This document shows positions 8,901-25,937 of a stretch of DNA of 30,322 nucleotides, in pieces. Source of the DNA: a virus. How positions within the stretch are numbered: position 1 is the stretch's first letter; every line of letters begins with the position of its first letter. Location: IMG/VR virus record IMGVR_UViG_3300030116_004531, positions 1-30,322 of that record. One strand, 5' to 3'. Under the pieces are notes generated by a model. That model saw only the letters and a list, made by a program, of their open reading frames with translations. It searched no databases and was not told where the DNA came from. Position numbers and translations under genes: made by a program.

Positions 8901-11900
8901 GTTCTAGGTAAATTTCTTCTCATGAAATTTATAAGTTCTTGCTGAAGCTTTTTAATATCACTTATACCTTTAGTTCTTTGCCTTATTATTTCTCTGGAGT
9001 TTTTTAGTTGCGTTAACAAGTCAGTAGAAATTTTTTCATCTAATGCTTTTTGTAAATCAACTAACATCTGAGCTTGAGTTGTAGACATTTTAGTTTTATC
9101 AGCTGCCTTTTGGTATGCAGGTAGTCCCATAAAAAATTCAAAAACCTGGTCAGTTATTTCTCTTTCAGACAGAGGTTCTTTAATAGTTTTGTTTTTTCTT
9201 CTGAGGTCTCCTAATTTTTTTTCTACTTGTAGGAATAACTTAAGTCCAGCTTTAGCTCCGCCATCTATGCTTTTAAAGCTTTCAGGTAAAACACCAAGAA
9301 GTAAAGAATCAATTTCAAAAAGTTCTTTAATTTTTTTTACTGGCAACTTTTCTTTTCTTCTTAAGTAATCATAAATAAGCGCATCCTTTATACCCTTACT
9401 TCTTGCCTCTTTTACTTTGTCTTGATAGAACTTATCATCTCTTTGTTGTCTACCAACTCTAGGCGGCTTATATCTTTTGCCATCTTTAACTAAAAAGTAA
9501 TCTCCACCTTGACCAAACTGATTGTATCCAGACTTTTTAACCTCATAACCAAGCGGCGCAACCATCTGTTTTAGTTCTCTTTCATTTGCTTGAGATGTAA
9601 TAAAACCACTGGTGTTCATATTAAACATTTCAGTAACTTGTTTTATATCTCTTTGCTGCCTAGGTTTAGATTTAAGTTTTCTTTTTCCAATACCATATGG
9701 AGCTACAACTTGTGATTGCACACTTCTAGGTTTACCTTCTATACTTTCTGCGGGTACATCAATAATTTGTGCAGCATTTATTATTTTATCAGGGACTCCT
9801 ATTACCTCACCTAAAACCTCATTGGCATAAGTAGAATGATTAGACCCTGCTTTTGTGCCTGTATATTTATAGACAAGCATGATATCATTTTGTTTAAAAT
9901 CATTTTCTTTGTAAAAGCCATCTCTTAAATCATCAGCTGTTATGTCAAAACCTCCAATACTTTGCATGTATTTATGAAACTCTGTGTTAGGTTTCAATAG
10001 CTGGTCTTGTATACCATTTAAAAATGTTTTTCTTTCTGGTGATTCTCTTAAAGCTTCCCATGAATCAAAAGAATCTAGTACATTTTTTATAGATTGAACG
10101 GGCTTAGTTAACATGGCAGCTTCTTTAAAAGATGCGTAGTCACCAAGCTTTGAAATAAATATATCATATACAGACTTATTAAATAATTTGCTTCGGGTTG
10201 GTGAACCACTAATTATAAATATATAATCACCTTTTAACTGTTGTTCTAATGCATTTAAACTTTTACCGGAAGCCCACACCACATTGCCTTCTTGTGCAAA
10301 AGGAAAACTTGGCCCTCCATCTATAGGATTACCTTCAACTTCACCTACACCAAGTTGGTCTGCAACCCAAAATGTAACGGTCTGGTCTTTACTTATTATG
10401 TCATTGATAAGGGCATCAATATCTATTTTCTTTGATTCATCTATTAAAGATAAAGGATAGCTAGTTTTAAAATCTACTACTTGTTGTCTGCCCTTAGGCT
10501 TCTTTAGTTTTACTGGTGGGCCTATAGGGCCAGGCTCTTCTTGATTTAAATTTAAAACTTCAACATCTGTTTCTGTTATTGTTTCTCCTGCTGCTACTTT
10601 ACCTGATATAGTGTTAAGCAAATCTATTACATCACTGTCTGATTTTGTAAACTCAAACCCAAAGTTAATACCTAGTTGTTTTAAAAAGTCTTGTATAGCT
10701 TTTAATACTTTATTTTTTTGTGGTTTAGTTAGCTGAGTATATTCTGCTGACATTATTCCAAGTAGTTCTGCCAACCTTTCTTCATTCTGAAAATCAGGTT
10801 GGTCATTATACAGAGCAGCGAAGTCATCTATTCTTTTACCTAGAGCACTTCCTTTTGGTAAAGCTTTTCTAACAGACCTCATCATGCTGTCTGCGAGTTT
10901 TGCTGCTTGAGGGTCACTCATTTTGTTTACTACAAGAGCATGGAACACCTCGTGTGGAACAGTGGTGTTAGTTGCTTTTTCTAAATTAACATGAATGATG
11001 TTTGAATCTGGGTCAAAGAAACCTTTACCTGCTGGGGCGTACTTTTCAAACTCTGCATTGCTTTGATGTAAAACAATCCTTGTGTTTGGAAGCACACTAC
11101 TTATTGCGTTAGCAGCTTTTGTGGCAATGTCTGTAATAGTACTTACTATTTTAGTTGTCGTTTCAGGAGCAGCTATATTGTTTATAACTAAATTATCGCT
11201 AACAGTTTCTACACCCTCAGTGGTTTCAGTAAAGAAAGTTTGTGTTGCATCTAATTTTTCAGAAGGTTCAGGCGCAGCAAACACTTCATCAAGAGTTTCT
11301 TCAGTAGTTTCTTTTTGCACTGGCCTTTCGTTTATTTTTGCAAGCTCTGCGTTTATTTGTTGTATCTCTTCTAAATCATTTTTAACAAGATTAGGGTCTT
11401 TGTTTTGAGTTGCATCATCTAATTTTTTTCTTCTTACTAACTTGTTCATTACATCAGCAAACTCAGCATCAGAAATATTTTCTGGAATTTGGTCAGCCAA
11501 TGCGATAGCTAAATCATAATCTGCTTTAATCTGTTTTGCTTGCTCTGGTGTTAAGATGCCTTGATTTATCTGAGCTTTTAATTTATTGGTAAATGCAGTT
11601 TGACTTATGTTTGGGTCATTTTTTATAATCTTAAAAGCTGCCAGCTGCTGTGGTGTCAGATTATTAAAGTTGTTTCCTGCATATGCATTAGATACTGCGT
11701 TAGGAACACCAAGAATAAAACCACCAACTGCTTCTTGCGCTCCTGAGTATAATACATCTAATATAAATTCTGTTGCAGTTTCAGGAGTTTCAAAAAACCC
11801 TTTATCTTTCATGTCATTGTAAATAACCTTTACTACATCTTCGGTTACTTGCTGTAAAGCACCAGTCTCAAACTCAGCAGCTGCTGCTCCTGTTACAGTC

Positions 11901-13585
11901 AAAGCAGCTTTTGTTGCAGGTGAAAGCGCTTCTTGTCTTATAAACTCTTTAAAAGTTGAGGGGCTAGCATTATTGGGTGTTTTATCTAGAGCTCTTTTGA
12001 GAACGTTGGTTATTAAACCTTTTTGATTTATTACATTTCTAAATCCTAAGTTTTCTAAAAATGCAGAAGGTATTGCTATTACAGATTTCAATGTTGCCTT
12101 TTCGCTTTCCGGTACATCATCAAACATAGGATTCTTTGCCATCTCTTCATCTACAAAACTTGAAGTAAGTGTGTAAAGATTAGCCATACGCTGTGGGAAA
12201 CTTGGTGTAAGTAAAGCTGGAAGAGATTCAGCTAAACCATACAATGCTCCTCCCCAAAACCCTTCAGTTTTAGCAGCTTCATATTGTTCTGATACAGACT
12301 TGTTTGTCCATTCCTCTAAGACATCTTCTCTTATCATATCAGATATAGGAGCTACTTGTTTTTTATTATCGTCTCTAATTTTTTTATTAATTAAATTAAT
12401 TGCTGGTATTTTTTCTGTAACTTTTTCTTCAGCAAAAGGAGCTGTTACCATTCTCTCTTGGTCAGAAGGTTTATTATAAAATTCTTGGATTTCTTTTATA
12501 CTAAGATTTTCAGCGTTGCTTGGAACACCAAAACCAAACTCCTGTCCATATTTTAACATAGCTTCTTTGTATGCTCCTTCACCCATTTGAAGCTCCATTG
12601 GAAATAAAAACATCCCAGCATCAATAACGGCTTGTGTATATTCCGAACTCATTCTTGTAAATCCTGAAAGAAACTTTTTAATTCCTAACCTACCCAGAGA
12701 ACCTTGCTGCTCTTTCATTGCAAAGTAATCACCAGTGGCTTGGTTCAATTCAGCTTCTTTTTGATTAAAAAGATTTGTAGATTTTTCAAGGTTAATCCTT
12801 GCTTGGTTGTGGTCTTTAATTCTTTGATTTAAATCATCAATAAAAGCTTTGTTATTTATAAGCTGCATATCAGTCATAGTTTCTACAGCAGCTATTTCTT
12901 CTTCTAATCGGTCTGAATTTTTTACAAATAAATCATAGCCATCTTGTAATTGTTTTGCTTCATCTGCAAATTTTTTGTTTGCTTTTTGAAAGGCTTCATC
13001 AGATTCAAATTTAATTTTGTTTGCATTATACCCAATCTGTTTCTTTTTTATATTTATAGATTCTTCTCTGTTATCTATAATGAAATCTTTAAGCTCTTGT
13101 TCCCTTGCTTCTTTATCTCTTAATAAACCTAAGGGTATTTTTTTAGACTGACCATTAGCAGCAGTTACTTTTATTTCTTTACCTAAAATATCGGCTTCAT
13201 CAAAAGTAAAACCTTGGTCACCATATAAATAATTAAGTTGGGGGACTATAAAACTTTCTCCTTTTTCAAGAAGCTCAGGTGTTACACCTGTTAACTCCTC
13301 TCTATCTTTAAGCCTTTGAAGTTGGGAAGTTACTTTATCTACGGGTTGCTCCAATGAACCATTTACCGATGGAGAATCCGATGCTGGTTGCTGAAAGTCT
13401 TTTTTTTTTCCAATAAGATTTTCAAAATCTTCTTTGGATTTAGTATAACCTTTAGACTGCACGTACCCATACATATCCTCTAACACATCATCATTAGAAT
13501 ATATAAGTGTAGTAAAATCATCTATAGTTTTACCATACCCTTTAGATTGAGCTCTACTATATAAGTCTTCTAATACTTCTTCCAT
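5993..13585 (-). CDS. Giant polyvalent-type internal virion / ejection protein with HExxH motif, 2530 aa
   Basis: Probable DNA-ejection protein, the counterpart in position and size class of T7 gp16. Layout: two copies of a 30-residue repeat (VLEDxYxxxQSKGY, 4-58); a helical region; hydrophobic segments around residues 310-345 and 450-660 that could cross a membrane; a metallopeptidase-like 'HEVFH' at 878-882 (HExxH; 10940-10954 on the plus strand) preceded by 'NIIHVNLEKA', as in zinc peptidases; a predicted alpha/beta region from about 1050; long helical parts; a C-terminal region resembling large-polyvalent-protein-associated segments (GLNPSIAIKQLTS, KWGDRTAIMLGG); and a terminal Asp-Leu repeat. 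No lysozyme or transglycosylase motif was found. It follows the 502-aa protein after 2 bases. Function is inferred from order, length and motifs. Confidence 0.75.
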   Translation of the reverse strand: MEEVLEDLYSRAQSKGYGKTIDDFTTLIYSNDDVLEDMYGYVQSKGYTKSKEDFENLIGKKKDFQQPASDSPSVNGSLEQPVDKVTSQLQRLKDREELTGVTPELLEKGESFIVPQLNYLYGDQGFTFDEADILGKEIKVTAANGQSKKIPLGLLRDKEAREQELKDFIIDNREESINIKKKQIGYNANKIKFESDEAFQKANKKFADEAKQLQDGYDLFVKNSDRLEEEIAAVETMTDMQLINNKAFIDDLNQRIKDHNQARINLEKSTNLFNQKEAELNQATGDYFAMKEQQGSLGRLGIKKFLSGFTRMSSEYTQAVIDAGMFLFPMELQMGEGAYKEAMLKYGQEFGFGVPSNAENLSIKEIQEFYNKPSDQERMVTAPFAEEKVTEKIPAINLINKKIRDDNKKQVAPISDMIREDVLEEWTNKSVSEQYEAAKTEGFWGGALYGLAESLPALLTPSFPQRMANLYTLTSSFVDEEMAKNPMFDDVPESEKATLKSVIAIPSAFLENLGFRNVINQKGLITNVLKRALDKTPNNASPSTFKEFIRQEALSPATKAALTVTGAAAAEFETGALQQVTEDVVKVIYNDMKDKGFFETPETATEFILDVLYSGAQEAVGGFILGVPNAVSNAYAGNNFNNLTPQQLAAFKIIKNDPNISQTAFTNKLKAQINQGILTPEQAKQIKADYDLAIALADQIPENISDAEFADVMNKLVRRKKLDDATQNKDPNLVKNDLEEIQQINAELAKINERPVQKETTEETLDEVFAAPEPSEKLDATQTFFTETTEGVETVSDNLVINNIAAPETTTKIVSTITDIATKAANAISSVLPNTRIVLHQSNAEFEKYAPAGKGFFDPDSNIIHVNLEKATNTTVPHEVFHALVVNKMSDPQAAKLADSMMRSVRKALPKGSALGKRIDDFAALYNDQPDFQNEERLAELLGIMSAEYTQLTKPQKNKVLKAIQDFLKQLGINFGFEFTKSDSDVIDLLNTISGKVAAGETITETDVEVLNLNQEEPGPIGPPVKLKKPKGRQQVVDFKTSYPLSLIDESKKIDIDALINDIISKDQTVTFWVADQLGVGEVEGNPIDGGPSFPFAQEGNVVWASGKSLNALEQQLKGDYIFIISGSPTRSKLFNKSVYDIFISKLGDYASFKEAAMLTKPVQSIKNVLDSFDSWEALRESPERKTFLNGIQDQLLKPNTEFHKYMQSIGGFDITADDLRDGFYKENDFKQNDIMLVYKYTGTKAGSNHSTYANEVLGEVIGVPDKIINAAQIIDVPAESIEGKPRSVQSQVVAPYGIGKRKLKSKPRQQRDIKQVTEMFNMNTSGFITSQANERELKQMVAPLGYEVKKSGYNQFGQGGDYFLVKDGKRYKPPRVGRQQRDDKFYQDKVKEARSKGIKDALIYDYLRRKEKLPVKKIKELFEIDSLLLGVLPESFKSIDGGAKAGLKLFLQVEKKLGDLRRKNKTIKEPLSEREITDQVFEFFMGLPAYQKAADKTKMSTTQAQMLVDLQKALDEKISTDLLTQLKNSREIIRQRTKGISDIKKLQQELINFMRRNLPRTSFTKSEAVNLIRKIQQVNSKSSQANLENLMEEVMDVVVTKNNRIILSKINKLLAKKYEAVVSGRKKAKGVDVDTNARIKRIKNSLFASGISVEKAQEQIDKLNAELFAIGLNEESTDEDFAKATDIQIALNYNKAMLMEMDDMYTTDLLLNTLSELETLIKGGRQELQRQLELANREYRNDIQIGFESITGEKVDMQAPDYKSQLEKRQTKRQNIKRKEKSDNFFRKKIIELYEFIRYVNDSFGFGAAEAMEGLMDRLDVLPGEMFGGNLQELITQKVDASTRKFKQRMLIFRELMTNKLVEIYGKRYEEIYRDFEQTDNEFYKDKAAVDKAQETYNKNKNDQTKRALDEVILENTMYLSQHQMANYVQQFKDPALLNTFKKMFGEKYAETMADMEARLDDKAKTMADFIVNEYYPSVYPYYNQVYKKIYRTNMPFNKYYSGPLIREGMEFEPVNLLGDNEPFNTQVASNFTKLRLRNNNPLQAVSIVDNVFNYAREMEYFAAYAENLRNIDKLFKNKYIKDAIVDIHGQQFYNLVSNMIDKIAVRGITKGRIKAGQILNNFNNVFIFSTLGLNPSIAIKQLTSIPTFMNEIGEANWIKYSAKNKSEQAKIWKEVRDNSVYMQDRKNDNILRTIETYNPEAFANFIPTKSNIWAVNFLMSMIKWGDRTAIMLGGLPNYSYYKAEFKKKNPNATEQEAIDHAIVKFEKDVKTTQQSQDLQDRDIFQNSDPITRQLNMYLTTPKQYLRKEIIAMRNLGRKLKAMDAKAGKGTIGQNIRTFVLYHFVMPLIFQYVSLGLPGVLRPFRDDDDEDLIRAAVLGNLNALFILGEMITYFADVYQRKPWSGQVPALPFYDRVAKPLRDLFRALAIEDPVKRAEAIQKALFNMLELTGAPVSTTKRWTENVQKVIDGDYENLGEAVLRLLNFSEYQISGPRKTTKTKLITPSTDTDLDLDLDLDLDLDLELDEIFD
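6012..6059. repeat. 12-bp tandem repeat encoding an Asp-Leu tail
   Basis: Three perfect or near-perfect 12-bp units (aggtctaagtca) at 6024-6059, with a degenerate fourth at 6012-6023. On the minus strand they encode repeated Asp-Leu near the C-terminus of the 2530-aa protein. The unit length is a multiple of three, so copy-number change would lengthen or shorten the acidic tail without a frameshift. Confidence 0.8.
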
Positions 13586-15887: not shown

Positions 15888-16295
15888 TTATATTTTTTTT
15901 ATCATTTCATTACAGTTTACATCTCCCTGTACATAACCCCACTCTTCATAGGTTTTCATTAGGTTATCATTTTTAAGGATAGCGTAAACAAATTTACTTC
16001 CTTGTTCTTGACAGATGCTTGTCAGCAATCCAATCAAGTGTTTTACTGCATCGTGTCTTAATTTTTTATCTACATTTTTATCTGAGATAATCCATTCTAC
16101 CCACGATACTTTTGAGTTGGTAAAATACACAAAACCTGCGCAAACAGGTTTATCTTTGTATAAAACCATTATTCCTCCTTGTCCATCTTCTGGTAAAAAT
16201 TCTTTTGGTGGAGGAGTCCAACCCCATTCTTTCCACCAATTTACCAAAACTTCATCATAATCAGAAGGATTTAATTCATTTATATTAAATTCCAT
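15888..16295 (-). CDS. GNAT-like acetyltransferase fold protein, 135 aa
   Basis: The product from the ATG at 16295 is MEFNINELNPSDY..., of a length usual for a single GNAT domain. A central beta hairpin ('GGIMVLYKDKPVCAGFVYF', 'SWVEWIISDKNV'), a helix in the position of the CoA-binding loop, and a C-terminal 'YAILKNDNLMKTYEEWGYV' that closely follows the GNAT beta5-alpha4 pattern support the fold. The classic R/Q-x-x-G-x-G/A loop is not intact, so enzyme activity is uncertain. Similar proteins occur beside tail and ejection genes in marine phages. The longer frame starting with TTG at 16304 is rejected because it would start inside the TATCTTTG box. It opens the ejection-protein operon. Confidence 0.6.
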   Translation of the reverse strand: MEFNINELNPSDYDEVLVNWWKEWGWTPPPKEFLPEDGQGGIMVLYKDKPVCAGFVYFTNSKVSWVEWIISDKNVDKKLRHDAVKHLIGLLTSICQEQGSKFVYAILKNDNLMKTYEEWGYVQGDVNCNEMIKKI

Positions 16296-16301
16296 TCTAT
16301 G

Positions 16302-16309
16302 CAAAGATA
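16302..16309 (-). promoter_or_regulatory. TAnnTTTG promoter box (TATCTTTG) for the ejection-protein operon
   Basis: On the minus strand TATCTTTG ends 6 bases before the ATG at 16295. No TTG element is seen at the -33 distance. It lies in the 20-base gap after the fibre gene, and the four downstream genes have gaps of 1-10 bases, so this box could drive all five. The leader would be very short. Confidence 0.5.
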
Positions 16310-16315
16310 CTAAAT

Positions 16316-17887
16316 TTAAGGAAAGCTTTTCATTACATCTGCTTCAATAGCAAATAATTCAGTTGATGTTGTGTTCTCATTTGTAAGTGTAAAATTCAGT
16401 TGATGTCCTAACATTCCTAATGCTTCGGCTTCTACATTCTTAATGTATAAAATATATGGGTCAGCAACACTTAATGGTTGTGCACCTGATAAATTAGTAT
16501 TTACAAATAGTCTATTAATACCACTGGCTAGACTTATTTCTATGTTAGTTATTTGACCAGCAAATTTTACTGTTGTATATGCTGGCTCTGAAAAATATAA
16601 ATAATCTCCAATACTTATAATATTGCCAATAGCAACTAAAGGATTTGTAGAAAAATTTACTGTTAAGACATTGCTTTGAAGCGACCAACTTGCAGCTTTT
16701 CCAATACCATTAGCTGACCTTAAGGCATATTCATCAGCAGCAGCAGGTGTTTGATTTGTTTTTCTTAAATAAGCAAAATAAGCTCCTTCCTTCTTTTCAA
16801 ACCATCTATAGTCTATAAATCCTTCGTCTTGTATATCTGTTTTCATATTTACAGTCCAGGCAGAATCAGATTCTAAATTCAATGCTTTAAATACTTTGTT
16901 TTCTAGTGGGTTTTGATTAAATACACTTGTTATCTGTGAATTAAATTGCTGACCATAAAAGTTATTTCTAGTTTCGTTGGTGTTGTGTTTGTATAAATTC
17001 CCACCATTAAAAGAATATAAATAGTTATTCATTCCAAGCATGTACTCAGGAATGTAAGAATAAAAAGAAGGCCACCCTTTAACGCTATCACTATAAGTTA
17101 AAGTATATTCAGTTGTTACCGGTGAGGGGACAGGAGGTACAGTGCTGGGTGTCGGAGGTGTCGGAGGTGTCGGAGGTGTGGGTGTTGGAGCGCCTGGTAC
17201 GCTACAAGTATTTGAATTGTAAATTAAATTATTCTCACCACCCATATATCCATGGTAATAACATTCATAGCTTATTGTACCATAACCTCCTACAACTGTT
17301 AAGGTTACATCACCATAATAATATGTGTATGTATTACCATCTAATCCTACTTTTGGCCCTACCGCCGTAGTTCCTGTATATGTTATAACATTAGTTAAAT
17401 TAAAATTATGAAACGCTATCGGATGAGCTGCTGGAACATTTTTTAAAACGTATGTTCCTACATTTGTACCATACGTACCATAATTGCCTCCAAAAACAAA
17501 CTTGTTTCCTCCTGATATGTTTTGTATAGTAGTCTCATTTTCAGCTCCTAAACAATACTGTGGTGCTGGTGTTGGAGCAGGTGTCGGAGGACTAGGGGGT
17601 GTAGGGGGTGTGGGCGGTGTTGGTGGCGTAGGTAATGGGCTAGGAGCATAAGTTCCACACGCTGATGTACAAGGTACGTCTATAATAGTAGTAGTACCCG
17701 ATATTGAATTTTTTTGTACTGGCTGTCCATTAAAATTTGTTGCGCTTATATCTATACAAGGCAAGGAAACTTCCCCCTCTAACAGTGAAATCCTTTGCTC
17801 AGTACCATCACAACAAATAATTGACCATCTACATACTCCACCAGTAGCTCCTATTGGACAGGTTAATTCATACGTTAAACACGACAT
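16316..17887 (-). CDS. Pro-rich tail-fibre-like protein with cupredoxin-like domain, 523 aa
   Basis: Probable virion appendage protein. Residues 1-80 form a Cys-rich domain (C3, C10, C19, two at 25-26, C44, C73, C77). Residues 82-109 are a Pro-Thr-Pro-Pro linker. Residues ~110-228 are beta-rich with a type-1-copper-like site: 'HPIAFH' (155-160), then 'YECYYHGYMGG', giving Cys209, His212 and Met215. A second Pro-rich linker (231-257) leads to a ~265-residue beta-rich C-terminal domain that I do not recognise. No signal peptide is seen, as expected for a phage structural protein. It has its own promoter just upstream and lies directly after the oxygenase and glycosyltransferase genes, so its linkers are candidate substrates for those enzymes. 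The fibre call is by composition and position. Confidence 0.65.
   Translation of the reverse strand: MSCLTYELTCPIGATGGVCRWSIICCDGTEQRISLLEGEVSLPCIDISATNFNGQPVQKNSISGTTTIIDVPCTSACGTYAPSPLPTPPTPPTPPTPPSPPTPAPTPAPQYCLGAENETTIQNISGGNKFVFGGNYGTYGTNVGTYVLKNVPAAHPIAFHNFNLTNVITYTGTTAVGPKVGLDGNTYTYYYGDVTLTVVGGYGTISYECYYHGYMGGENNLIYNSNTCSVPGAPTPTPPTPPTPPTPSTVPPVPSPVTTEYTLTYSDSVKGWPSFYSYIPEYMLGMNNYLYSFNGGNLYKHNTNETRNNFYGQQFNSQITSVFNQNPLENKVFKALNLESDSAWTVNMKTDIQDEGFIDYRWFEKKEGAYFAYLRKTNQTPAAADEYALRSANGIGKAASWSLQSNVLTVNFSTNPLVAIGNIISIGDYLYFSEPAYTTVKFAGQITNIEISLASGINRLFVNTNLSGAQPLSVADPYILYIKNVEAEALGMLGHQLNFTLTNENTTSTELFAIEADVMKSFP
17142..17186. repeat. 9-bp coding repeat, Pro-Thr-Pro linker 2 of fibre gene
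   Basis: Tandem gtcggaggt units (17151-17177, three identical copies with degenerate flanks) encode Pro-Thr-Pro repeats on the minus strand. The identical units suggest recent expansion. Confidence 0.7.
17589..17633. repeat. Degenerate 9-bp coding repeat, Pro-Thr-Pro linker 1 of fibre gene
   Basis: Five 9-bp units encode PTPPTPP on the minus strand, but the units differ at synonymous positions (CCA, CCG, CCC and CCT are all used). The protein repeat is kept while the DNA repeat has decayed, which points to selection on the peptide. Confidence 0.65.
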
Positions 17888-17904
17888 ACTATAAAATTAT
17901 GTTA

Positions 17905-17936
17905 CAAATTTACGAAAATTTATTGGTGTTAATCAA
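17905..17936 (-). promoter_or_regulatory. Bacteroidota-type promoter, TTG / TAAATTTG, for fibre gene
   Basis: On the minus strand a TTG at 17934-17936 and TAAATTTG at 17905-17912 are 21 bases apart, matching the -33/-7 pattern. The box ends 17 bases before the ATG at 17887. The -33 element lies in the 3' end of the glycosyltransferase gene. Confidence 0.6.
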
Positions 17937-18549
17937 TGAAGCCCCATATACCAGTTTGATGATGTTTAGTAAAACATACCCCATGAGAGTTATTAAATAA
18001 ATGCGCAGGCAATATTTCTATGTGTTGTTTATCTTGCTCTATAAAATTAGATAAAGCTATTGGCCCAACAGTTTTTCTAACAATAGTACCTCTTATGTCT
18101 TCTTCGTAATCTGGGTAAGCTCTTACAGCTTGTAAATTTTCAATAATATTTTTTCGGGAGTAAGTCAGAAACCGTGTCCAAAACTCTGATGGTGGTGAAA
18201 TCATCATACTGTTTTGTACAATCTCATCACCAGAAGAAGCACCAATAATATATATTTTATTTTTATCTATTTGATGTAAAAATGGCGATATTAACTCTAT
18301 ATCCATATCAACATACGCACCACCAATTTTTTCTAATATTAAACTACGCACATAATCAAGCTTAAAAATCTTGTGAAGCATATCTAAAACTTTAAAAAAC
18401 TCTGGGTCGTTACATTTAATAAACTCATCTATCTCTTCATCATCCCATATCTTGACACAACAGTGAGCTCTTTTCCAAGAGTCCAAACAATGATGCCATT
18501 TTTGAGACCATTTGGTTTTATCCTCAGGAGCTAGGAAGTGTAAAATCAT
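17929..18549 (-). CDS. GT32-type glycosyltransferase (Gly_transf_sug, DxD)
   Basis: Sugar transferase of the GT32/Gly_transf_sug type, 206 aa from the preferred start at 18549. Visible features: an N-terminal 'ILHFLAP' strand, 'KWSQKWHHCLDSWKR', 'LDYVRSLILEKIGGAYVDMDIEL' with the metal/nucleotide-sugar DxD (DMD, 81-83), and a C-terminal 'NNSHGVCFTKHHQTGIW' with the conserved His. These match the family from Och1-like and bacterial capsule enzymes. The acceptor is unknown. The longer frame from 18618 would overlap the oxygenase gene by 95 bases and adds residues that do not fit the fold; the shorter start overlaps by 26. No membrane segment is seen, so the enzyme is cytoplasmic. It sits with the oxygenase between two Pro-rich virion genes. 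Confidence 0.8.
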   Translation of the reverse strand: MILHFLAPEDKTKWSQKWHHCLDSWKRAHCCVKIWDDEEIDEFIKCNDPEFFKVLDMLHKIFKLDYVRSLILEKIGGAYVDMDIELISPFLHQIDKNKIYIIGASSGDEIVQNSMMISPPSEFWTRFLTYSRKNIIENLQAVRAYPDYEEDIRGTIVRKTVGPIALSNFIEQDKQHIEILPAHLFNNSHGVCFTKHHQTGIWGFID

Positions 18550-19780
18550 GAAGCTTGTAATGTATATAAAAATTTCTAAAATACTTACCGGCAAAAGGTT
18601 CTTTTCTAGCATGCTCACATACAGCAGATTCGTAAAGAATCATATCTCCTGGTTGGGCATAAACTTTATACCATTCTCCATCATGACCTTTTATATCAAG
18701 AGGCCAATCATCTGCGTATTTTTTATTAGGGCAGCCGCAAGTTAAGTCTTTATCTACTATTATTATAGAAGATATGTGATGAGTTTCAATTCTATCTGTA
18801 TGTTCTGTTAGACTAGAACCTTTTTGATAAGACCTTATACCATAAATAAAACTTGGTTCTAATTTTCTTCCACAAAAATTTTCGTGCACATCTTTAAGGG
18901 TAGTGTGTAATATATTTTTTACAGTAGGTAAGTTGTCAAAGCTTAGCATAGTTGTGTCACCTGGTACATAATGGTCTTTACCATCAAAGTTTTCTTCTAC
19001 CTCTTTTAATTTTAAAAGCTCGTAACATTCTTTAATAAGATTCCACATATCTGGAGGACATTTTATTAATTCAAAACCATTAGGTGTGAGCTTAGGTATG
19101 CCTTCAACGGACTCATTAGGTGTATTATTAACTTTTACTACTTTACTCTCTAAAACTTGCTCAATAGCTGCGTCTTGTGTGTCTTTGTTTTCTACTAGAT
19201 TTTTATGTTTTTCCTCATCGCCTGCTCCATCCCAACTGTTTTCTCTCCACCAAGAAGTAATAATATATTTTTTACCTTCTTTGACGGCTACACCTTCATG
19301 TAAAGTTTCATCTAAAGTTTTTCCATCTCTCATGTTTTCCCACCAAAGAGCTTTACCTTTTTCTGCTTTTACACTTTTTTGTAATTTAGGAAAGTTTGTT
19401 TCTCCACCAGTAAAATCATCGTTTAAATAAATCATTAACGTGTGAGTCCTGTTGCCTGATTGCAAACAGTGCATATCATAAGCAGGGCCACTAAAAAAAT
19501 CATTGTGAGGTTTGAAATATTGTCCAGGCTCATACAACTGCCCTTGCAATGCTTCTCCTTTGTTTATAGGTAAATTTAAATGCTCAGCAATTTTTTTATG
19601 TACACTTTGTATTATTACATTATTTGTGTCTAAATTTGATGTGCTTGATGTTCTATGGTCTGTAACGTCAGAACGGTCTGTGCCTCCAACAACAACAGAA
19701 GAACGTGAATGATTTGCGTCAATCATTTTAATTATTTCATCACACTCTTCGTGAGAAATAAAGTTTGGTATTTCGTGCAT
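18524..19780 (-). CDS. Prolyl-4-hydroxylase-like protein with two 2OG-Fe(II) oxygenase domains
   Basis: 418 aa with two iron/2-oxoglutarate oxygenase domains in tandem. Domain 1 (1-180) is P4H-like: 'PHND' gives His92-x-Asp94, 'GGETNFP' (125-131), the distal His161 in 'LHEG', and the 2OG-binding Lys171 ten residues later in 'KKYIITSWWR', the spacing of prolyl 4-hydroxylases. A charged linker (~185-230) follows. Domain 2 (~235-412) has 'EHTDR' with His327-x-Asp329, 'PGDMILYESAVCEHAR' with the distal His390, and a basic 2OG-contact candidate (Lys399 or Arg402). Both iron triads look intact. P4H enzymes hydroxylate prolines in Pro-rich or collagen-like peptides; whether this one does is inferred from its neighbours. 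No signal peptide. It starts 34 bases after the tail gene. Confidence 0.85.
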   Translation of the reverse strand: MHEIPNFISHEECDEIIKMIDANHSRSSVVVGGTDRSDVTDHRTSSTSNLDTNNVIIQSVHKKIAEHLNLPINKGEALQGQLYEPGQYFKPHNDFFSGPAYDMHCLQSGNRTHTLMIYLNDDFTGGETNFPKLQKSVKAEKGKALWWENMRDGKTLDETLHEGVAVKEGKKYIITSWWRENSWDGAGDEEKHKNLVENKDTQDAAIEQVLESKVVKVNNTPNESVEGIPKLTPNGFELIKCPPDMWNLIKECYELLKLKEVEENFDGKDHYVPGDTTMLSFDNLPTVKNILHTTLKDVHENFCGRKLEPSFIYGIRSYQKGSSLTEHTDRIETHHISSIIIVDKDLTCGCPNKKYADDWPLDIKGHDGEWYKVYAQPGDMILYESAVCEHARKEPFAGKYFRNFYIHYKLHDFTLPSS

Positions 19781-19800
19781 TAGATTTTATTTAATTTTTA

Positions 19801-19808
19801 TAAAGATA
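19801..19808 (-). promoter_or_regulatory. Weak promoter-like box (TATCTTTA) before oxygenase gene
   Basis: TATCTTTA on the minus strand, one base off TAnnTTTG, lies 20 bases before the ATG at 19780 in the short gap after the tail gene. It could give the oxygenase-glycosyltransferase pair its own transcript. No terminator is seen between the tail gene and this box. Confidence 0.25.
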
Positions 19809-19814
19809 AAAAAT

Positions 19815-22800
19815 TTATGGACAACCAGTACAACTTGTAAATGAAGTTCCATTCCAATATCTAGCATAAGCCCCATCACTTATATAAACAGCGTTAGGAT
19901 GTAAGCTAGAACATGTGTTGCTCGTTCCATACCATGCTGTTGCTGTACACAATGTTCCTGTATCAAAGTAATTAGTTTCTCTTCTTGCAGCTAAACAAGC
20001 ATTGTTACCACTTGTTGTATCTCTTCCAATATTATTTATTGCAAAACAAGAAGCAGGTGTAGGCGTTGGCGGTGTAGGAGGTGTAGGCGTAGGTGCAGCT
20101 TGACAAGAAGCACAATCACTAAAACTATCAAAATTAGTATACACCGGCCCAGATGTTCCTCCTAGATTTTGATATGAATAACATATTCCAGATACTTTAA
20201 TTACATTAGGGAACGTTGTTCCTCCTGGCCCACTTACGGTTGTTATTATATCTAATCCACCTGTCGCACAATCTCCATAGTTTGCATAAACAGTTGCAGG
20301 TACAGGCGGTGGTGTAGGTGTTGGCGGCGTAGGCGCTGGAGTAAACCCACCACAACTTGAGCGTATATCCACATAAGTTACTTGAGAATCATAAAAAGTT
20401 GCCGCTGCATCTATTATCTCCCAATATTTAGTTCCATCAAAATCAGGATTAGGCCCAGCTGCACTTCCATTTAAAGTTAGAGCTAAATTATTAGCTAATG
20501 TAGCTGCCGTTAAGTTAGTCACCCTTACTTTATAAGTTGGGCTTGTTGTGTAACACTCTCTTATTTCAATGTCTTGAGTTACAGTAGTCGGAGTTGGCGG
20601 CACTGGTGGTGTTGGCGGCGTAGGCGCTGGTGGACATCCAGAAGTTGTTGGAGGGCTTCCAACTGGTTGAATGTTTTGACATGGTAAACCTTGGTCTGAA
20701 TTTTGTCCTGCATCTCCAGCATATCTAAAGAACAGTGGGTTTGAACCTGATGTACCGTCTACAAATCTTTGGTCAAAAGTTGGCTGTGTCGCTGATTGAT
20801 AATAACAATCTTGATGACTACCACACGCTATTAATCTGTAAAATAAAGCTGGTGGTACTGGTGGTACTGGTGGTACTGGTGGTACTGGTGGTACTGGCGG
20901 TACTGGCGGTACGGGAGGCTGAATTGTTCCTAAACACTCACTACAATTATCATACTGCAAGCTTGGAACATCTACACTACTCGTTGAACCAGTTGTTGAA
21001 GGATTATGATAACATATATCCGTACCACTAACATTTGATTTTATAAATCCTGGGAACGTAACTCCTATACCATCTACTAATCTAAAAATTTGTTTTGTAG
21101 TGCTGTCTTCACAATCTTCATACTCTCTATAAATATAAGTTGGTGTTGGAGGTACAGGTGGAGTTGGCACTGTAGCTTGACATGTTGCACAATCTGCAAA
21201 AGTTGTCAGAGAGGTAATATCTGTATTTGAAACTGATGATGTTGTTTGTGGGTTTTCATAACATTCTCCATCAAATTTGATAAACCCAGGGAAACTATAC
21301 CCTACTGGCCCTCTTACAATTGTCAATACTGTTGCATCATTACATTGTTGATATTGTTTAAAATCATAAACTGGTGGTGTTGGTGTTGGAACAGTAGGAT
21401 TTCTGTAATCGTAAACCAAATATAAGTTATTACCTGTCGTCGGAACTGTAAACGAACCTTTATAATATCCTGGCGCTCCAGTAGTATTTAATGGAATACT
21501 ATTAATTAATCCAAGTAAAGTAGTAATATCTGTAATTGTGTTTGCATACGTTGTATCTGTTCTTAAATATCCATACCCATTTGCGGTTGCATTAAAAACA
21601 AAATCATCAAAATTAATTTTATTAGTAGCAACTGTCATAACCGAACCATTTGTTGGAATTAAACCAACTCCTTGATTACCGCTTACAATGTTATATTGAG
21701 AAATAACAAAAGCATCAGTTCCAGTGCTAAACGGAACTAAGTTTGATTGAGTAGCTGAAAATAAACTACCATCTGTCCAACTCGCTTCATTATGTATAAA
21801 TTTACCGGAATCAATAGCATCTGTCACACAAATACTATATAAGTTCAGTAAAGTTCCAGATGGACACTCTACAGTAATTTCTATAGTGTCATCAGTACTA
21901 GAGTTAGATGTAACTTCTATAACCACTTGATTTGCTGTGGTAGAATCTTTGTCAAAAGTAAACTGTCCACTTGTATACACTAATCCACTAGTATGCTCCA
22001 CTCCATTATATATAGCTTTTATTGTGTAACCAACTACACCTATTGCTCCTTCAGTTTCTATTATGCTTCCTGTTTCAGTTTCAATATCTTGAGAAGTAGC
22101 TTCTGTAATTATAGGCTGCGAACCTTCAAGAGGAATATTATATTTTACAACTACAGTTCCTAACTGTTCTTCTAAATCTACACAATAAATAAACTCACTC
22201 CCTGCTGGTACAGTTATATCTCTTGTTACTCCACAAGCTGTACAAATAGCAACCTCAGGCTTTAATATTGTGTTTGATGTTAAAACATATTCATTCATGT
22301 ATGGGTCATATGCCCCAAGTTTTTGAGTGGTAAAAGAAGCTGTAAATAAATCTCTAAACCAACTTCTCATTCCTGCCTCAGATATTACTTGAAGTTGTTC
22401 GTTAGCAGCTGAGCTACCAACTAAGTTAATTACCGCACTTCTTTTTGCATCTGTAAAATATTTGCTTTCACCCCACGCAGCAAAACTTTCTGGATGATTA
22501 CTTATACCATAATTCTCTATTCTTGCAATTTGTTTACCTAATACCTCAGGCACAGAAGTTAACTGTCCATCTCCACTTGCATCACTAAGTAAATCTTTAC
22601 CAGCTAAAACATAAGAAATTTTATCTTCTTGTAATACTAGAATATCATCTCTACGACCAAATAATATTTCTACATCACCAAATGTTTCTTCAAGTGGTTT
22701 AAAATTAGCAAGTCCTAAATTAAATTCATTAAGTTTATTGACATTACTTTCATCATTAAAAACTCCACTGTAAGTTAAATCAGCAAACCTATGAGCTTTT

Positions 22801-25800
22801 TGAAATGTAGTATTTGAAGTAGTAAATGTTCTATTACCTAAATTAAACTGCTGTCCAAAAGAAGCGTCTAATATTTTATAACTTTCAACACCATTACCAA
22901 AAGCAAAACAATTAGAAAAATCTGTTCTAACTTCTCCAGCTGTCCCTGCTTCAATATCTTGATTTGTAATATTTCCTAAATGGTTTCCGAGCACATCTAT
23001 TTCAAATGATTCTGCACTTTCATACCATAAATCAGGTAAAGCAGGCTTAGGTTCAGTTTCAAATACTACAACTGAATCTCTTCTATATATTGTGAAATCA
23101 ACTCTTACTTGAGAGTCGCCTTTACTACTTCTGGATGCACACCCCTCCGTACCTGAGACAAGTAGGTAGTAACTATTAGGAGATGTACTGGTATCTTCAT
23201 GTAGTCTGTAATAATTTGTTGAGGTAGGACTAGTTGCTGTTGAACCAAAAATGGTTGCTATTGCACTCCTTCCATTTGAACCTGAATTTGCTCCTGATGG
23301 TAGTCCACTAGACTGAGAAGCTGTTGGTATATACACATTATTTATATTAGCTGGAGATACTATAGCATTTTGCTCAATAATAGTTTGAAGGTTTTCATTA
23401 TTAAAAAATTCTTGTATGTTGGCGTAAGTATCACTACAAATTATAGTTTGTTCTAATACACTATTTCTGCCCTCACACTGGTTACCAGTCCCAACTCTAG
23501 TTTGTTCAATTTTCATAACCACTCTTGTTCCAACGGGTAAAGTGTAATTTGCTGTAAAAGCTCCAGCAGCATCTCTTAAGAAAAACGGATATGCAATAAC
23601 GGGATATCGACCAGCCGCTTTAGCTTTTATTGCCGGCACTTTTTCATCCACAATATCATCTTCATCCATGGTAGCTGCAAATGATATACTATTCATTTTC
23701 ATATAAACACCTTCAGGCACTTGCACAGAGTTACCATTTAATGTTACTGTAATAAAATCTTTTATTTGAGTTTTTACCTCTAATACAGTGGCCTCAGTGC
23801 ACTGAGATAAAGGGCCACTCACATCTCTTTTTACAATAAGTCTATCTCCATCTTTTACCTTACCTATATTATCTCCTTCTAGTAAAAAAAATACGTTATT
23901 AGTATTATCGTCTTCAAGAAAGATGCTTGAATAAACAGTGTCATAAGTATCTTTATCTGCTTTTATACAAAACTTATATCTTGTGGCAAAACTTGGAGCT
24001 CTTTGAGTTACAGGTATTGTAACTAAAATTTCATTTTTTGAAGTCGATTGAGCACAAGGAATATTAATTGTATTATTTGTAGACACTAATGCAGTGGAAG
24101 CTCTATTAAAACTATCCATGTAAATTATACCAACTTCATATCCTCTATTACTGTGAAGACTACCAGCATTTGGAACTTCTTGTAAAGTTGCAGAAGAATT
24201 TGTAATCTTAAAATATTCATATATTAAATCTGAACCTCCATTTAATTTATACTCAGCCGCAAGTAGCTGTAGTTGTAACGTAGATGGTAATATTACACTT
24301 GCAGCAAAACCTTCTCCAGCTAATGGTAAAGCAGGCGTGGAGCTCGTGATTCCTGTTTGATTGACATCATATTGAGGAGCAGTGCTACCAAGTTGAGGTT
24401 CTAATAAAAAATTAAAATTATCTGTCAGTGTCGTTCCAGCACCACCTTGTGCATTTGCTACTGTTTGTATAGCACTTGATATTGTTCCAAATTTGGTTTG
24501 AAAATCTGTTGTAGCTATTAAATCATTGATTGGTGTTGCACTACTACTAAAATCTTGTATAAGAGTGTAAGAAAAATGTATAGTAGTTGGGCCGGTAGTT
24601 TGGTCAGGTGCAGAAGCACTACCTAAATACCATGAATCATGTTCAAATGTAAATGAGAAATTTATTGTAGCTCCAACAATTAATTTACTTTCTTGTCCAG
24701 CAAAGTTTATTCTTAAAGCACTATTTGCTATAGTGGTAGTACTACCAAAAGTATAACCAGAACTAGCTGTTGTAACGGTCAAAGTATCTTCACCTATCTC
24801 AGATGAACTTAGAGAAGTAACATAACTTAAAGTCAAAGGTTGATTGTAAGTATCTTTCAAGTCATAACCTTCTACATAATTACCAAAAACTAAACGGTTA
24901 GCCATAAGTGTTTGAGCTTTGGCTAAAGTAGGGACATTGTCATATAATCTTAATATTTCACTCTCTGGTAAAACAGAAAAAATTTTGCTTTCAGAAAACG
25001 TAAAAGTATAAAAAGTGTTATCTGATAATCCAGATTCCGCTTTATTAATTCTTTCAATAACTTTAATAGTAGAATCGTTTGCATTTTTAAATAAAATATC
25101 TACTCCTTTGACAAGTTCACTACCTGAGTTGTAAGTAACTATTGCTGCATTATATTTATTTTCCATACCCTCATTTGCAAAACTTTGTGCGCTAAAATTA
25201 AATGCTTTAGGAGCAAAAGCAGGTTCTGAAAATTGTGAGGTTGCAGAATACTCATCATTAGCATATTTATACCTATAACCGAAACAGACAAAATTATCTG
25301 TCAAATAAGTGTCTTCGTTGTTTGCTTGAATTAGCTGAAAAGTAGGAGCTTGTAAAGGTGGTTGTTTTACAACTAATATTTCTCTTCTATCAAATTGGTC
25401 TTGTTGATTGCCTGAAGTGTTGGCAGCAGGATTAGGATAGTTTTTATCTATATTAATTACTCTAGGTGGATTAGTATTGTCAGTAAAAAATAAAAGATTG
25501 TCTATTTTATCTACACCAGTAATTAAAAAAGATGGGTCAAAATTTAAAGTTGTATTTACCGCACCTCCATTATCTATACTTATTACATGATATACAATTC
25601 CTCCTGTCTGAACATTATAAGAAACTATTAAATCTAGTTTACCGGTTGCTCCCTGTGTAAAAGCAGGGTCATGGACAAACCAATATATGGTTTCATTAGC
25701 ACTATCTTCAAAAGAACCTATACATCTTGCAGATGAACTTAACGCAGTACCATCAGTGTATGTAAGGGATGTAAGCTTGGTATTACCTTTTGAGTTTTCT

Positions 25801-25937
25801 ACTGAACCTATTTCTGATTGTTCTGTAGAACCAAGCCTAACATTAATAGCATTTGTATATTCTCCATTTGGTAAAAGCCTTTCTTCAAGGCTTTTGTTCA
25901 TACGGCCTGCTATAAAATTTCTTTGAATGTTTGCCAT
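19815..25937 (-). CDS. Large tail (nozzle/stabilisation-like) protein with Pro-rich modular C-terminus, 2040 aa
   Basis: The first ~900 residues resemble the tail stabilisation proteins of crAss-like and related podoviruses: an N-terminal 'GRMNKSLEERLLPNGEYTNAINVR' type segment, then 'LLFFTDNTNPPRVINIDK', beta-rich throughout, probably a platform or nozzle attached to the connector. Further beta-rich regions extend to ~1500. The last ~520 residues are a string of Cys-containing domains separated by Pro-rich linkers. Three of them (~1520-1590, ~1600-1670, ~1880-1945) share one pattern: Y-x3-C, then F-P-G/N-x-I-K, C-Y, a Thr/Ser-rich stretch and D/N-C-x2-C. Three others are unrelated or divergent. 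No coiled coil or membrane segment is seen. The gene starts 1 base after the connector gene. The fold call is from recall; the module repeats are visible directly. Confidence 0.75.
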   Translation of the reverse strand: MANIQRNFIAGRMNKSLEERLLPNGEYTNAINVRLGSTEQSEIGSVENSKGNTKLTSLTYTDGTALSSSARCIGSFEDSANETIYWFVHDPAFTQGATGKLDLIVSYNVQTGGIVYHVISIDNGGAVNTTLNFDPSFLITGVDKIDNLLFFTDNTNPPRVINIDKNYPNPAANTSGNQQDQFDRREILVVKQPPLQAPTFQLIQANNEDTYLTDNFVCFGYRYKYANDEYSATSQFSEPAFAPKAFNFSAQSFANEGMENKYNAAIVTYNSGSELVKGVDILFKNANDSTIKVIERINKAESGLSDNTFYTFTFSESKIFSVLPESEILRLYDNVPTLAKAQTLMANRLVFGNYVEGYDLKDTYNQPLTLSYVTSLSSSEIGEDTLTVTTASSGYTFGSTTTIANSALRINFAGQESKLIVGATINFSFTFEHDSWYLGSASAPDQTTGPTTIHFSYTLIQDFSSSATPINDLIATTDFQTKFGTISSAIQTVANAQGGAGTTLTDNFNFLLEPQLGSTAPQYDVNQTGITSSTPALPLAGEGFAASVILPSTLQLQLLAAEYKLNGGSDLIYEYFKITNSSATLQEVPNAGSLHSNRGYEVGIIYMDSFNRASTALVSTNNTINIPCAQSTSKNEILVTIPVTQRAPSFATRYKFCIKADKDTYDTVYSSIFLEDDNTNNVFFLLEGDNIGKVKDGDRLIVKRDVSGPLSQCTEATVLEVKTQIKDFITVTLNGNSVQVPEGVYMKMNSISFAATMDEDDIVDEKVPAIKAKAAGRYPVIAYPFFLRDAAGAFTANYTLPVGTRVVMKIEQTRVGTGNQCEGRNSVLEQTIICSDTYANIQEFFNNENLQTIIEQNAIVSPANINNVYIPTASQSSGLPSGANSGSNGRSAIATIFGSTATSPTSTNYYRLHEDTSTSPNSYYLLVSGTEGCASRSSKGDSQVRVDFTIYRRDSVVVFETEPKPALPDLWYESAESFEIDVLGNHLGNITNQDIEAGTAGEVRTDFSNCFAFGNGVESYKILDASFGQQFNLGNRTFTTSNTTFQKAHRFADLTYSGVFNDESNVNKLNEFNLGLANFKPLEETFGDVEILFGRRDDILVLQEDKISYVLAGKDLLSDASGDGQLTSVPEVLGKQIARIENYGISNHPESFAAWGESKYFTDAKRSAVINLVGSSAANEQLQVISEAGMRSWFRDLFTASFTTQKLGAYDPYMNEYVLTSNTILKPEVAICTACGVTRDITVPAGSEFIYCVDLEEQLGTVVVKYNIPLEGSQPIITEATSQDIETETGSIIETEGAIGVVGYTIKAIYNGVEHTSGLVYTSGQFTFDKDSTTANQVVIEVTSNSSTDDTIEITVECPSGTLLNLYSICVTDAIDSGKFIHNEASWTDGSLFSATQSNLVPFSTGTDAFVISQYNIVSGNQGVGLIPTNGSVMTVATNKINFDDFVFNATANGYGYLRTDTTYANTITDITTLLGLINSIPLNTTGAPGYYKGSFTVPTTGNNLYLVYDYRNPTVPTPTPPVYDFKQYQQCNDATVLTIVRGPVGYSFPGFIKFDGECYENPQTTSSVSNTDITSLTTFADCATCQATVPTPPVPPTPTYIYREYEDCEDSTTKQIFRLVDGIGVTFPGFIKSNVSGTDICYHNPSTTGSTSSVDVPSLQYDNCSECLGTIQPPVPPVPPVPPVPPVPPVPPVPPALFYRLIACGSHQDCYYQSATQPTFDQRFVDGTSGSNPLFFRYAGDAGQNSDQGLPCQNIQPVGSPPTTSGCPPAPTPPTPPVPPTPTTVTQDIEIRECYTTSPTYKVRVTNLTAATLANNLALTLNGSAAGPNPDFDGTKYWEIIDAAATFYDSQVTYVDIRSSCGGFTPAPTPPTPTPPPVPATVYANYGDCATGGLDIITTVSGPGGTTFPNVIKVSGICYSYQNLGGTSGPVYTNFDSFSDCASCQAAPTPTPPTPPTPTPASCFAINNIGRDTTSGNNACLAARRETNYFDTGTLCTATAWYGTSNTCSSLHPNAVYISDGAYARYWNGTSFTSCTGCP
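20851..20913. repeat. 9-bp tandem repeat encoding Pro-Pro-Val linker
   Basis: Seven consecutive 9-bp units, five identical (ggtggtact) followed by ggcggtact and ggcggtacg. On the minus strand they encode PPVPPVPP in the linker between modules 2 and 3 of the 2040-aa tail protein. The near identity suggests recent slippage, and copy number can change without breaking the frame. Confidence 0.85.

Follow-up and report, generated by a model that had tools for sequence, protein, structure and literature searches.

A predicted prolyl 4-hydroxylase and exchangeable glycosyltransferases between split muzzle genes: a probable modification cassette for proline-rich tail linkers of uncultured phages

Uncultured phages probably hydroxylate and glycosylate the linkers of their own tail proteins, as algae and plants treat their cell-wall proteins. 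The system was found in IMG/VR virus record IMGVR_UViG_3300030116_004531, a stretch of 30,322 nucleotides (nt) with 34% GC that was analyzed as a whole and is called the window here. In it, a double-domain 2-oxoglutarate (2OG)-Fe(II) oxygenase of 418 amino acids (aa), predicted to be a prolyl 4-hydroxylase (P4H), and a GT32-type glycosyltransferase (GT) of 206 aa are encoded between the genes of two proline-rich tail-tip proteins of 2040 and 523 aa. All four genes are on the minus strand (Table 1). The P4H and GT genes overlap by 26 nt, 34 nt separate the 2040-aa gene from the P4H gene, and 41 nt separate the GT gene from the 523-aa gene; an alternative upstream GTG start would extend the GT to 229 aa. 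An earlier, sequence-only reading of this DNA had given these open reading frames (ORFs), the overlapping P4H-like double oxygenase and GT32 between two proline-rich genes, and six and two linkers in the respective proteins, and all of this was reproduced. We put the probability that the cassette is a virion-protein modification kit, in which linker prolines would be hydroxylated and then O-glycosylated, at about 0.7. A broader claim seems to us somewhat better than an even bet: that this is a mobile, modular hydroxyproline O-glycosylation system for tail-tip linkers, with a two-domain P4H and exchangeable GTs, that is passed among unrelated phages together with an adhesin module of linkers and beads.

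Tail-tip proteins and their linkers

By homology, a crassvirus-type muzzle protein is divided here over the two linker genes, with the enzymes lodged between them. Residues 1–1513 of the 2040-aa protein align with Cellulophaga phage virion proteins, the best-matching stretch to the virion structural family phrog_14478 being residues 5–766, and PF25729 (crAss_MUZ_C, E=6.3e-19; hereafter MUZ_C), the C-terminal domain of crassvirus muzzles, is present in the 523-aa protein. In Cellulophaga phage phi18:3, gp114 corresponds to the core of the former and gp115 to the C-terminus of the latter, both annotated from tandem mass spectrometry (MS/MS) proteomics. This homology supports the sequence-only claim that the enzymes sit between two virion genes and also refines it, the two being parts of one muzzle. 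The nearest isolates are MW202828, phi18:3, and the elemo phages. The N- and C-parts form a single gene in phi38:1, Calle_1, and the elemo phages, and two adjacent genes in phi18:3; in MW202828, a 183-aa ORF separates them. None of these isolates has proline-rich linkers in its muzzle genes or the enzymes at that place, and INPHARED yielded no cultured relative that carries the P4H. Sequence searches of the PDB with the 2040-aa, 523-aa, and 206-aa proteins gave no match.

All six linkers of the longer protein fall within its last ~530 aa, separated by Cys-containing beads of 63–79 aa, and both linkers of the shorter one lie in its N-terminal half. Proline reaches 14 per 20 residues in the 2040-aa protein and 13 in the 523-aa protein; no other ORF of at least 100 aa in the window exceeds 6.

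Table 1. Features of the muzzle region and its enzymes in the window.
Feature	Position	Strand	Evidence or remark
Muzzle-like protein gene, 2040 aa	19815-25937	-	
Muzzle-like protein core, aa 1-1513 of 2040	21399-25937	-	phrog_14478 E=2.9e-213; phi18:3 gp114 homology
C-terminal extension of muzzle-like protein, six Pro-rich linkers and Cys-containing beads	19815-21398	-	
Pro-rich linker 1, aa 1514-1524	21366-21398	-	
Pro-rich linker 2, aa 1589-1601	21135-21173	-	
Pro-rich linker 3, aa 1671-1699	20841-20927	-	(PPV)n tract, no Ser/Thr
Pro-rich linker 4, aa 1767-1785	20583-20639	-	
Pro-rich linker 5, aa 1865-1883	20289-20345	-	
Pro-rich linker 6, aa 1947-1963	20049-20099	-	
2OG-Fe(II) oxygenase, double-domain, 418 aa, predicted prolyl 4-hydroxylase	18524-19780	-	PF13640; phrog_61; PDB P4H matches; AlphaFold/Foldseek; two conserved Fe triads
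N-terminal P4H domain	19211-19780	-	Fe ligands H92, D94, H161; 2OG Lys K171; RTSS motif
C-terminal second oxygenase domain	18524-19159	-	H327, D329, H390, R402; phrog_2954/phrog_3531; conservation
GT32-type glycosyltransferase, 206 aa, DxD	17929-18549	-	PF04488 above cut-off; both Asp of DxD unchanged in 12 homologues
Second tail-tip protein, 523 aa, linkers in N-terminal half, muzzle C-terminal domain	16316-17887	-	PF25729; phrog_38031 E=5.8e-94
Pro-rich linker A of 523-aa protein, aa 81-110	17558-17647	-	
Pro-rich linker B of 523-aa protein, aa 231-258	17114-17197	-	
Muzzle C-terminal core, aa 259-523 of 523-aa protein	16316-17113	-	PF25729

The predicted prolyl 4-hydroxylase

On sequence and modeled fold, the 418-aa enzyme has in its first domain a genuine relative of P4Hs, which is predicted to hydroxylate proline. 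The enzyme passed the cut-off of PF13640 (E=1.6e-15), and in the PDB it matched the B. anthracis P4H (E=6e-30), algal P4H (E about 1e-15), and vCPH of virus PBCV-1 (5c5t, E about 1e-15 to 1.5e-16). For the N-terminal half, the top matches by sequence and by fold were all P4Hs (bacterial, algal, PBCV-1, and human) and not other 2OG enzymes. The AlphaFold model of the oxygenase had a mean predicted local distance difference test score (pLDDT) of 85.9 and a predicted template modeling score (pTM) of 0.53, and its best PDB match in Foldseek was 3gze, the P4H of Chlamydomonas with (Ser-Pro)5 as its substrate. Moreover, H92, D94, H161, and K171, as well as R43-T44-S45-S46, are invariant across the aligned family, and H327 and D329 of the second domain are nearly so. 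The C-terminal domain has no sequence-detectable solved relative in the PDB, a search of cellular genome contigs turned up no relative of the two-domain enzyme, and none of the key enzymes received a name from NCBIfam.

A homologue of the C-terminal domain in cyanophage S-SCSM1 (L089, 9013-9708; L-numbers are labels of the viral contigs or loci compared with the window) adjoins an annotated GDP-fucose protein O-fucosyltransferase within a sugar cluster.

Co-occurrence of the enzymes and the linkers

Relatives were sampled through the neighboring ring protein, through MUZ_C, and through the P4H, and in 136 of them the full muzzle interval was visible. P4H and linkers were found together in 63 of these loci, and linkers without P4H in seven. 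By the criterion of the sequence-only reading itself, enzymes just as common in phages lacking proline-rich tail genes would have refuted the idea; they are not, the P4H being found in 0/66 linker-less relatives, so that all 63 P4H loci bear linkers. Similarly, a GT was present in 67/70 linker loci versus 1/66 linker-less ones. Near-complete linker-less contigs (55–66 kb) had no P4H, GT60, or PF04488 match anywhere, and the slot is occupied in 57 linker-less loci by a homologue of the linker/bead gene of some P4H-bearing phages. The sole linker-less muzzle locus with a GT60 gene is L294 (12244-13470), where a 786-aa protein adjoins.

The arrangement was equally regular when approached from the enzyme. 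Among the 80 best viral contigs with the 418-aa enzyme, every one that shows sequence upstream of the P4H has a muzzle part with linkers before it, and every one that shows MUZ_C has it after the P4H, in a gene with linkers. In addition, all 96 distinct two-domain P4H homologues with upstream sequence have a proline-rich ORF nearby, directly upstream in 91 of them. Because these loci share ancestry, raw Fisher values cannot be read as probabilities: on the tree of the MUZ_C core, we counted two state changes for linkers, four for P4H, and three for GT. Unrelated phages were searched for the same reason, the counts of the main group not being independent.

Two single contigs (L323, 1183-6976; L336, 6014-8828) carry P4H, HPAT-like (see below), or muzzle genes in pieces, through assembly error or decay.

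Recurrence in siphoviruses and other phages

The same pair was found behind proline-rich tail genes at a different locus. Four siphovirus-like contigs (L335 and L340-L342) have a tape-measure protein (phrog_1533, E=3.7e-77 in L341) and no muzzle. Their gene order is a protein of 1121–1173 aa with very long PVPVAPTPVP-type linkers, then the P4H, then a gene of the hydroxyproline O-arabinosyltransferase (HPAT) type; the P4H starts 11–12 nt after the proline-rich tail gene, and the HPAT-like gene overlaps by 4 nt. L435 has a homologous tape measure followed by a 631-aa protein with (PQ)n linkers, a P4H, and a GT 44% identical to that of the window, and L440 has a proline-rich protein, a P4H, and a GT that shares 46% identity with the GT of the window. 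On the P4H tree, the genomic context changes twice. Between their linkers, the siphovirus proteins also carry the window's bead domain, recovered by iterated profile search (E about 1e-10 to 1e-16), and the linker/bead module and the enzymes thus appear to travel together. Viral HPAT-like genes were identified in 48 loci; of the 38 newly fetched, 37 have a two-domain P4H just upstream, and the remaining one is truncated.

Two jumbo phages show GT60 at a distance from a linker gene. In Xanthomonas phage XacN1 (L307; 11995-13368 and 22192-25359) and Stenotrophomonas phage RAS14 (L310; 11998-13434 and 22675-25395), GT60 and a giant ORF with (PT)n-type linkers are ~9 kb apart, and in XacN1 an annotated carbamoyl transferase adjoins the GT60. 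Neither whole genome contains a PF13640 oxygenase.

The glycosyltransferase slot

The GT of the window scored 34.3 bits against PF04488 (cut-off 23), and both aspartates of its DxD motif (DMD, residues 81–83) are conserved throughout the 12 homologues aligned. Neither this GT nor the HPAT-like protein had a tblastn match among INPHARED phages. Among relatives, the slot between P4H and MUZ_C exchanges its contents. Besides the GT32 of the window type, we found a 220-aa GT-like protein with a 277-aa HPAT-family protein; a protein O-fucosyltransferase (O-FucT) with GT60 and an epimerase; a sugar-nucleotide dehydratase with GT-like and HPAT-like proteins; O-FucT with a carbamoyltransferase and a further small oxygenase-like protein; a radical SAM protein with GT60; and a GT60-GT32 fusion. 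The small oxygenase-like protein that accompanies the carbamoyltransferase, the third of its kind in these loci, has 183–187 aa and no Pfam match (L077, 11257-11820; L070, 11661-12212).

Two of the families that fill the slot in sister phages, HPAT and GT60, have hydroxyproline-directed members. HPATs are GT-A fold enzymes. Against the HPAT family of Pfam (PF23452, cut-off 23.9), the 277-aa protein scored 31.6 bits in L035 and 25.2 in L341, and its model (pTM 0.85) matched GT-A folds. The GT60 candidates of sister phages (273–408 aa) matched PF11397 above its cut-off (E 9.3e-26 to 6.1e-78), a family that we take to be GT60, that of Skp1 Gnt1. Gnt1 acts on hydroxyproline that a cytoplasmic P4H has formed, adding N-acetylglucosamine (GlcNAc) to it (PMC6939170).

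For the window itself, the GT32 may be the enzyme that starts the glycan. L057-type phages have a homologue of it fused behind a GT60, an arrangement that would suit addition of a second sugar in those phages. In the near relative L003 (61 kb), this is the one match to PF04488 and no GT60 turned up elsewhere; for phages of the window type, this favors a GT32 that works by itself or together with enzymes of the host.

Acceptor residue

We defined a Ser/Thr-free tract as at least 18 residues with at least 9 Pro and no Ser or Thr. Such tracts occur in many P4H-bearing loci, as (PPV)n in the window and as (PV)n and (PQ)n elsewhere, and in 0/7 complete linker loci without P4H, whose linkers are Thr-rich (PT)n. 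In three further loci with a tract, the P4H is not visible: L238 and L281, both with the tract in an ORF at the very end of the contig, and L396, which is outside the group. Since such stretches of the linkers offer no Ser or Thr, hydroxyproline is the natural O-acceptor there. This composition is circumstantial evidence that hydroxyproline serves as acceptor where the P4H exists and that Thr may do so elsewhere. A clean split of loci with and without P4H by linker composition, which we had expected, was rejected, (PT)n linkers being common in P4H-bearing loci as well.

Proposed mechanism and alternatives

In the scheme that we favor, the N-terminal domain of the 418-aa enzyme would use O2, Fe(II), and 2-oxoglutarate to hydroxylate proline in the PxP/PPxPP linkers of both tail-tip proteins as these are made during late gene expression. 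The adjacent GT would then add sugar to the linkers, most likely on the new hydroxyproline (or on Thr), so that the tail tip would bear sugar-coated appendages, built like "beads on a string," that are stiff and resist proteases. Exchange of GT32, GT60, HPAT-like, O-FucT, sugar-nucleotide, and carbamoyltransferase genes would alter the glycan, with the hydroxylase staying in place. The sequence-only reading had likewise proposed that the enzyme pair modifies the linkers. Co-occurrence, GT turnover, and recurrence in siphoviruses now speak for it, beside the observed gene order, domain identity, and active sites; from these, we infer hydroxylation and glycosylation themselves, with their substrate, acceptor residue, sugar, timing, and benefit.

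Several observations weigh against this scheme. The association in the main group comes down to 2–4 tree changes and largely one ancestry. The seven linker-bearing loci without P4H all keep GT60, so that linkers can exist without hydroxylation and may be glycosylated on Thr, and three P4H loci have no adjacent GT. GT32, to which the window's GT belongs, is not a family known to use hydroxyproline. The HPAT assignment is modest in profile score, with E<0.01 in only 6 of the 13 HPAT-like members aligned, and the model of the protein is closest to GT6. Outside the main group, GT60 genes are mostly not near proline-rich ORFs, and a GT60 scan meant as an independent replicate failed on this account. 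Finally, the single-domain P4H-like genes of Erwinia phage Y3 and Salmonella phage Sen-NF are not beside proline-rich genes, a context from which phage P4Hs may have other roles too. In these two phages (L308 and L309), the gene lies beside or near an asparagine synthase gene.

One alternative takes up part of this: hydroxylation alone would stiffen the linkers, and the GTs would act independently on Ser/Thr of the linkers or beads or on other tail residues, with no hydroxyproline-linked glycan. The loci that have only one of the two enzymes fit it, and GT60 includes the mucin-type polypeptide alpha-GlcNAc-transferase of T. cruzi, protist members of the family starting mucin-type glycans on Ser/Thr (PMC6939170, PMC8724618). 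We nevertheless consider it unlikely, given the hydroxyproline-directed members of HPAT and GT60, the tie of viral HPAT-like genes to the P4H, the Ser/Thr-free linkers in P4H loci, and the overlap of the P4H and GT genes, which recur as a pair in unrelated phages.

It is less probable still that the enzymes target host molecules, for example by hydroxylating EF-Tu or acting on a surface polysaccharide, and that the muzzle region is merely an insertion hot spot. The solved B. anthracis P4H entry 5v7y is titled as modifying EF-Tu, and a part in capsule or lipopolysaccharide chemistry is conceivable for the carbamoyltransferase, O-FucT, and sugar-nucleotide genes. Against this reading, none of the 66 linker-less relatives carries the P4H at the same slot, where a structural gene mostly takes its place, and the pair recurs behind a proline-rich tail gene at a different locus in siphoviruses. 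Pure ancestry, in which one ancestor had enzymes and linkers by chance and with no functional dependence, would suit the few state changes on the MUZ_C tree, where an independent-pairs test is powerless, but we give it very little credence in view of the unrelated siphoviruses with proline-rich tail proteins, the two context changes, and the repeated replacement of the GT while P4H and linkers persist.

Other genes of the region

A 138-aa gene (15888-16304, phrog_17252) follows the muzzle C-part in most relatives, whether linkers are present or not; its counterpart in MW202828 is annotated as an N-acetyltransferase subunit. The window also encodes a 2530-aa protein (5993-13585) without a PHROG match, which occupies the position of the giant structural protein of related phages and is probably cargo.

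Comparison with known systems

Hydroxyproline-linked glycan chemistry is known in eukaryotes, namely plants, algae, and protists. Full-text searches of open-licence papers found no report of phage hydroxyproline glycosylation or of this gene arrangement, and in one survey of viruses from the Baltic, the use to which viruses put P4H is described as "cryptic" (PMC9301287). If the scheme is right, phages would build hydroxyproline-linked glycans on their own receptor-facing appendages, and a concrete role would emerge for P4H and GT genes that are currently classed as auxiliary metabolic genes. A swap of the GT would change the tail glycan of the phage, making such glycans a fast-changing trait in the contact of phage and host. 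The small cytoplasmic enzymes would also offer a way of making hydroxyproline-glycoproteins in bacteria.

The muzzle of phiCrAss001 (gp44) is a hexamer of ~1 MDa at the tail tip, with proposed roles in gating ejection and contacting the cell (PMC10172136). The 523-aa protein of the window shares its MUZ_C domain; unlike gp44, the predicted muzzle of the window is split in two, with linker-bead extensions and an enzyme cassette between the halves. As for the hydroxylase, vCPH of PBCV-1 is likewise a virus-encoded P4H that matches in sequence, but it has a single domain and comes from a virus of a eukaryotic alga; we know of no GT cassette adjacent to it. The 2OG oxygenases of cyanophages and other phages (phrog_61, phrog_2954) are homologous single domains, not fused as P4H plus second domain, and no proline-rich tail gene adjoins those examined.

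For the pathway as a whole, two parallels stand out. In the Skp1 pathway of Dictyostelium and Toxoplasma (PhyA and Gnt1, CAZy GT60), a cytoplasmic P4H makes hydroxyproline, to which GT60 adds alpha-GlcNAc (PMC6939170), and several sister phages have a GT60 gene in their GT slot. Skp1 is a ubiquitin-ligase subunit modified on one proline for oxygen sensing, whereas the phage substrates would be many prolines in virion linkers, and the window has GT32 only. In the extensin-type glycosylation of plants and algae (P4H and HPAT/GT95), the enzymes work in the eukaryotic secretory pathway, whereas those of the phages are presumably cytoplasmic, with a double-domain P4H and a remote HPAT homology. The likeness lies in the order of steps, a P4H acting on proline-rich repeats and then HPAT, and it is matched by sister phages that carry an HPAT-family protein beside the P4H and by a top fold match to the Chlamydomonas P4H.

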